From Chitinophaga pinensis (GTDB lineage Bacteria > Bacteroidota > Bacteroidia > UBA7662): a DNA stretch of 47,078 bases. The stretch covers positions 1 to 47,078 of the forward strand of contig CAMCHJ010000015.1 of the NCBI GenBank assembly GCA_945874665.1. The letters are read 5' to 3'. A program made the position numbers and the translations under genes. The notes under the pieces are model-generated. The model made no database searches. It was not told the DNA's origin and was given only the letters and a program-made list of their open reading frames with translations. Below are positions 46,161 through 46,997 of this stretch, piece by piece; position 1 is the stretch's first letter, and each line of letters starts with the position of its first letter.

Positions 46161-46180
46161 ACCACGCAAACATCCCCATA

Positions 46181-46216
46181 AAAAAACCCGCACCGATTAC
46201 TCGGTGCGGGTTTTTT
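46181..46216. terminator. Bidirectional terminator between asnS and the rhodopsin gene
   Basis: A perfect 16-bp stem, AAAAAACCCGCACCGA (46181-46196) with its complement (46201-46216), closing a TTAC loop. T runs follow in both directions, so it ends asnS and the convergent rhodopsin gene. Confidence 0.92.
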
Positions 46217-46232
46217 ATTGTGGCTGAATAAA

Positions 46233-46997
46233 TTAAGCTGCCTTCTTAGAAGAAGAAACGGCCATTTGGTAAACTACCAAACCAAAACCGATTTTGTTCA
46301 CCGCGTCACCGAGGTTGTACATCAAATCGATGTTGAGTGAGCCAGCCATACCTGCCATCAAATTACCCGGCATCAACATATAGCCGATAGGGTAAATCGC
46401 CCAACCTACCAATACGAAGTTGCGAAGCAAACGGATAGCCTTCTGCAAATTGGCATCGCCTGAAGCTTGTGCCATTTTAGCTACGCTACCTGCAGTTGCT
46501 TCGTACACGATACCAGCCCAACCTACAGTAGAGATGATACCCCAAAGGATAGTCTGCTCAGGCTGAATGGCTTCGCCGATGTAACCAGCTACAAGCATCA
46601 ATACGCTGTAACCAATCATCTTCCAAAGCAACGACTGCTTTGCACCGTATGGACGGAGCAACAAGAAGAACTCCACACACATCAAAGGCACAGTAAGTGT
46701 CCAGTCGATGTAGCGGAACTGGGTTGGTGAAGGGTTGATGTAAGTCGCGCCCTCAATGAGATTGTTAGCAACGGCTGCCAAATAGTAGTCGCGCATGTAA
46801 TAATAGTGCGCGGCGGCTATCATGGTAATCAAACCACTAACCAACAATGAAGTCTTCCACTTGCCGTCAACATTACTTCTTTCAAAGAAGAAGAAGACTG
46901 ATGCGGCAAACATGGCCATCAGACCCACAAAGAATGTGAATCCGGTTACATCCCCTGGCTGCAGGGTAGATGATAGAAAAATGTAAGCTGTTTTCAT
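46233..46997 (-). CDS. Proteorhodopsin-type light-driven proton pump
   Basis: A 254-residue seven-helix microbial rhodopsin. Retinal binds K235 in helix G (NLGDAVNKIGFG). Helix C reads RYIDWTLTVPLMCVEF: D98 (proton acceptor), T102 and E109 (proton donor) give the DTE motif of outward proton pumps, against NDQ of sodium pumps and NTQ or TSA of chloride pumps. H64 in AAAHYYYMRD matches the proteorhodopsin histidine paired with the acceptor. M106, at the tuning position (105 in proteorhodopsin), predicts green absorption. G153 in LWGIIST aligns with W138 of bacteriorhodopsin and F152 of green proteorhodopsin, and equals the glycine of carotenoid-binding xanthorhodopsin. The ATG at 46997 is preferred to a TTG three codons earlier. 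No blh or crt genes lie in the window. Confidence 0.96.
   Translation of the reverse strand: MKTAYIFLSSTLQPGDVTGFTFFVGLMAMFAASVFFFFERSNVDGKWKTSLLVSGLITMIAAAHYYYMRDYYLAAVANNLIEGATYINPSPTQFRYIDWTLTVPLMCVEFFLLLRPYGAKQSLLWKMIGYSVLMLVAGYIGEAIQPEQTILWGIISTVGWAGIVYEATAGSVAKMAQASGDANLQKAIRLLRNFVLVGWAIYPIGYMLMPGNLMAGMAGSLNIDLMYNLGDAVNKIGFGLVVYQMAVSSSKKAA

Follow-up and report, generated by a model that had tools for sequence, protein, structure and literature searches.

Carotenoid windows in microbial rhodopsins

Carotenoid sites in rhodopsins are recognised first of all by a conserved glycine, and a bulkier residue in its place blocks zeaxanthin binding to the xanthorhodopsin Kin4B8 (PMC12308411). 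In Kin4B8, Ser208 is crucial for 3-hydroxycarotenoids, and hydroxylated xanthophylls pass on about half of their excitation energy; among proteorhodopsins, lutein and zeaxanthin binding is reported for KR1 and EINA29G6 (PMC12308411). Binding may also occur without energy transfer, as is the case for salinixanthin in Kin4B8 (PMC13093654). For marine Bacteroidota rhodopsins, Fujiwara et al. (2025) describe bound carotenoids as photocycle-accelerating pigments, and an earlier preprint also has light-harvesting in its title. In a 2026 survey, every Bacteroidota proteorhodopsin covered from one subtree had the diagnostic glycine (PMC13043013), and the carotenoid window is therefore already known for the clade to which we assign the protein described here.

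The rhodopsin gene and its surroundings

The window, i.e., the whole 47,078-bp stretch of DNA analysed, carries an intact type-1 rhodopsin ORF (46997-46233, minus strand), the 254-residue product of which matches Bac_rhodopsin (Pfam, E 5e-42). The features referred to below are the following:

46233..46997, minus strand: proteorhodopsin gene, 254 aa; ATG start at 46997-46995, TAA stop at 46235-46233
46671..46706, minus strand: D98/T102/M106/E109, proton acceptor, tuning residue and proton donor (alignment, numbering check)
46527..46544, minus strand: W152-G153-I-I-S156-T157 in helix E, a WG..ST motif shared with xanthorhodopsin, Kin4B8 and Gloeobacter rhodopsin
46539..46541, minus strand: GGT codon of G153, the fenestration glycine (alignment)
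46368..46382, minus strand: Y206 to P210; Y206 corresponds to xanthorhodopsin Y207 and Kin4B8 Y204, P210 to the Kin4B8 Ser208 position
46293..46295, minus strand: K235, the retinal Schiff-base lysine (alignment, numbering check)
46180..46217, no strand: GC-rich hairpin with A and T runs on its flanks, between the convergent asnS-like and rhodopsin genes (read from the sequence, partial match)

Residue numbers were confirmed for D98, T102, M106, E109, W152, G153, S156, T157, Y165, Y206, D231 and K235. The gene is the sole Bac_rhodopsin match in the window's genome (2.29-Mb assembly, 35 contigs, 96% complete). It is solitary and convergent with an asparaginyl-tRNA-synthetase-like (asnS-like) gene, and the intervening hairpin is likely a terminator common to both genes. 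The rhodopsin gene starts 81 bases inside the window's end; in the genus-mate G006, the equivalent neighbourhood runs on into non-pigment genes. Relatives at least 80% identical come from metagenome bins, several of which are titled with lake or pond names, and the two nearest carry a Sphingobacteriaceae label. The host appears to be a freshwater member of the Bacteroidota.

Family placement and predicted fold

The nearest relatives of the protein in sequence and fold are proteorhodopsins, and both the DTE motif and the retinal lysine K235 are present. Sequence comparison, Foldseek and VIA-align all rank the same solved structure first, namely 9jou, the zeaxanthin-bound light-driven proton pumping rhodopsin NM-R1. 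An AlphaFold2 model built on 42 sequences (mean pLDDT 84.7) matches 9jou with a Z of 30.8 and an rmsd of 1.4 Å over 229 residues (54% identity); the structures of zeaxanthin-bound Kin4B8 (8i2z) and of Salinibacter xanthorhodopsin (3ddl) also match the predicted fold over most of the protein.

The helix E motif WG..ST is shared with xanthorhodopsins, but it is highly improbable that the protein is one of them. Identity is 27-31% to xanthorhodopsin (XR), Kin4B8 and Gloeobacter rhodopsin (GR), compared with 54% to NM-R1 and 44% to green proteorhodopsin (GPR), and a small FastTree phylogeny groups the protein with NM-R1 and Bacteroidota relatives (support 0.73), away from the xanthorhodopsins. On sequence grounds, the protein is a proteorhodopsin of the Bacteroidota clade.

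The window glycine and its conservation

Alignments were made to chains of solved structures; the XR reference sequence matched 3ddl over all 273 residues. The original prediction had placed G153, by hand, opposite GPR F152 and bacteriorhodopsin W138, and had equated it with the window glycine of XR and GR. In the alignment, G153 falls without gaps in the column of XR Gly156, Kin4B8 Gly153 and the glycines of GR and NM-R1 (9jou), and no gap separates it from Y165. The same column holds F in 8cnk (GPR F152) and in 9r22, and W in 4jq6. By residue offset, the pairing with bacteriorhodopsin W138 agrees with this alignment. The protein hence carries, at the XR Gly156 position, the glycine used as a criterion for carotenoid-binding fenestrated rhodopsins. 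Y206 provides the tyrosine found at XR Tyr207 and Kin4B8 Tyr204, which is not diagnostic alone, since GPR has it too.

Conservation was assessed in 92 relatives (55-97% identical). Some come from genomes of the family and others from a search through 84,980 species genomes, and the two sets partly overlap. All 92 have glycine at the G153 column, where all four GGN codons are used, which indicates that the column is not a product of chance. S156 is invariant, T157 is found in 91 of the 92 sequences, and Y206 in all, and the WG..ST motif as a whole is essentially fixed. D98, T102, M106 and E109 are likewise invariant, in agreement with the predicted DTE proton-pump motif and with M106 as the green-type tuning residue. 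Because a 42-sequence subset of the alignment has 68 invariant columns, fixation of G153 is by itself weak evidence; the telling point, in terms of sequence, is the presence of F or W at the same column in other proteorhodopsins. The glycine is thus not peculiar to this protein, being fixed throughout its Bacteroidota clade, and the protein, ordinary for its clade, adds a lake lineage to the known carotenoid-window proteorhodopsins.

Retinal and carotenoid genes

The gene absences reported here rest on protein-family searches. The search for crt, blh and hydroxylase genes, proposed with the original prediction, was fruitful in part. In the window's genome, a Blh domain is fused behind a lycopene-cyclase domain in one 665-aa frame (CrtY-Blh; contig C6, L003:8035-10032), so that lycopene-to-retinal conversion is encoded. 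In contrast, family searches of the same genome did not find SQS_PSY (CrtB), CrtI over the cut-off (phytoene-desaturase matches fall below it) or CrtZ. SQS_PSY (phytoene-synthase-type) is found in 15 of the 17 family genomes; CrtZ was not found by the same searches in G006, listed as 100% complete.

The fusion gene and the rhodopsin gene lie on different contigs in the window's genome. In other Bacteroidia (L183, L184, L185 and L186), the rhodopsin gene adjoins the fused CrtY-Blh gene. The fusion is no rarity, as 32 of the 72 Bacteroidia genomes that carry Blh encode it in a frame of at least 650 aa (both domains were confirmed in five), and it looks common in Bacteroidia; a literature search found no published description of it. 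In G010, the lycopene-cyclase and Blh parts are encoded by separate, overlapping frames.

A PF04116 match on contig C1 was rejected as CrtZ: it is 407 aa long, versus about 150-170 aa for the CrtZ type, and adjoins a YhhN-family gene. About half of the family genomes, including G005 of the same genus, have a PF04116 frame of CrtZ size, whereas the window's genome and G006 have none; those read show histidine-rich motifs of the CrtZ kind and zero NCBIfam model matches. In G005 (L179:6075-7510), a CrtZ-like hydroxylase gene adjoins a regulator gene whose product combines a MerR domain with a B12-binding one, a layout like that of CarH/LitR-type light sensors. Contig C11 of the window's genome carries a CrtD/carotenoid-isomerase-like oxidoreductase gene (L036:5949-7409), below the family cut-off, in the same genome in which CrtB was not found.

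G006 carries a cluster (L033:10341-16680) of CrtI, CrtB, CrtD-like, acyltransferase-like, CruG-like and CruF-like genes, the composition of which suggests an acylated carotenoid glycoside as the product. The 35-kb stretch around G006 crtI-crtB has only weak, paralogue-level matches in the window's genome; by contrast, the neighbourhood of the CrtY-Blh fusion shows mostly 82-94% protein identity between the two genomes. Since the 35-kb block also includes housekeeping-type genes (pyrophosphatase-like and histidine-synthesis-like) with no orthologue-level match here, a gap in the bin is a likelier cause than loss of carotenoid synthesis. CrtB and CrtI are probably missing through such a gap, which is the simplest reading, and a real large deletion of the crtI-crtB region is less likely. 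With no orthologue-level match to the region, we do not accept carotenoid-synthesis loss in this genome as shown.

These data bear on the view that the glycine is an inherited clade feature, and that the protein of this species binds no carotenoid. Such a view would fit the clade-wide fixation of G153, whatever the carotenoid genes, and the family searches of the window's genome, which did not find CrtB, CrtI over the cut-off or CrtZ. We regard it as very unlikely, given that the G006 crtB/crtI region is absent as a block, non-pigment genes included, and that the closest solved homologue has zeaxanthin.

Ligand choice and position 210

The stretch from Y206 to P210 aligns without gaps to XR, Kin4B8 and NM-R1, which is evidence of alignment, not of binding. 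The hydroxyl partner provided by Ser208 in Kin4B8 is not present, and P210 occupies its position. XR has Met at this site, and P210 therefore lowers the case for 3-hydroxycarotenoids but not for carotenoid binding in general. Proline is the commonest residue at position 210, found in 65 of the 92 relatives, followed by E (18), D (8) and S (1). No clear pattern linked P or D at this position to the presence of CrtZ in a dozen fragmented family genomes. With the window residues fixed and the selectivity site of Kin4B8 varying among P, D, E and S, the clade offers a test case for carotenoid choice.

The original prediction of a carotenoid antenna holds as to the xanthorhodopsin-type opening, and the nearest solved homologue is zeaxanthin-bound; the hydroxylated or keto ligand was only a guess, in view of P210 and of the searches for CrtZ here and in G006. 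As P210 removes the hydroxyl partner and the G006 crt genes come without a CrtZ match, the ligand in this lake genus could be a carotenoid whose ring bears no hydroxyl group, perhaps a glycoside with a single ring. This proposal is doubtful, and the genus-mate G005, which combines a CrtZ-like gene with proline at position 210, counts against it. If true, it would set this proteorhodopsin antenna apart from the hydroxylated ones on record.

Proposed function

We propose that the protein is a green-type proteorhodopsin that would pump protons outward when driven by light. G153 in helix E would leave a side opening next to the retinal ring, and a membrane carotenoid may put one end ring there, as in zeaxanthin-bound NM-R1. 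The carotenoid would most likely absorb blue light and hand some of that energy on to retinal; it might also speed the photocycle. Alignment of G153 to known fenestration glycines, its fixation in the relatives, zeaxanthin in the closest solved homologue, the literature on the glycine, the CrtY-Blh fusion and the phytoene-synthase-type genes of the family support this explanation; P210, which replaces Kin4B8 Ser208 and the Thr of NM-R1, and the searches that did not find CrtB, CrtI over the cut-off or CrtZ count against it, though the first two of these absences are probably due to the bin gap. On balance, we consider the explanation as a whole to be probably correct. Its parts differ in strength, carotenoid binding being likely and energy transfer to retinal plausible.

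Alternatively, a carotenoid may bind at the window but mainly stabilise the pump or speed the photocycle, with negligible energy transfer. The pigment role given by Fujiwara et al. (2025) and the salinixanthin precedent in Kin4B8 (PMC13093654) speak for this alternative, whereas the preprint title and the transfer of about half the energy from hydroxylated xanthophylls in Kin4B8 speak against it, and we rate it as possible but rather unlikely. If energy transfer does occur, as in the antenna explanation that we prefer, these bacteria exploit blue light beyond the reach of retinal by itself.

Comparison with known systems

The closest known system is NM-R1 of Nonlabens marinus. The two proteins (9jou; related entry 9jov) share 54% identity, the same fold, the fenestration glycine, the DTE motif and M at the tuning position. 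In contrast, the B-C loop is longer in our protein, which has T157 and P210 where NM-R1 has G and T, respectively. KR1 (Dokdonia eikasta) and EINA29G6 are likewise proteorhodopsins, reported to bind hydroxylated carotenoids (PMC12308411).

Kin4B8 (8i2z) is more distant (~28% identity). Although G153, T157 and the equivalent of Y204 are conserved, Kin4B8 Ser208 and Tyr209 are replaced by P210 and G211, and N188 and Y191 by L190 and N193. Salinibacter xanthorhodopsin (3ddl) belongs to another family (27% identity) and binds a keto-carotenoid, yet its G156, T160, Y207 and M208 correspond to G153, T157, Y206 and M207 of the protein described here.
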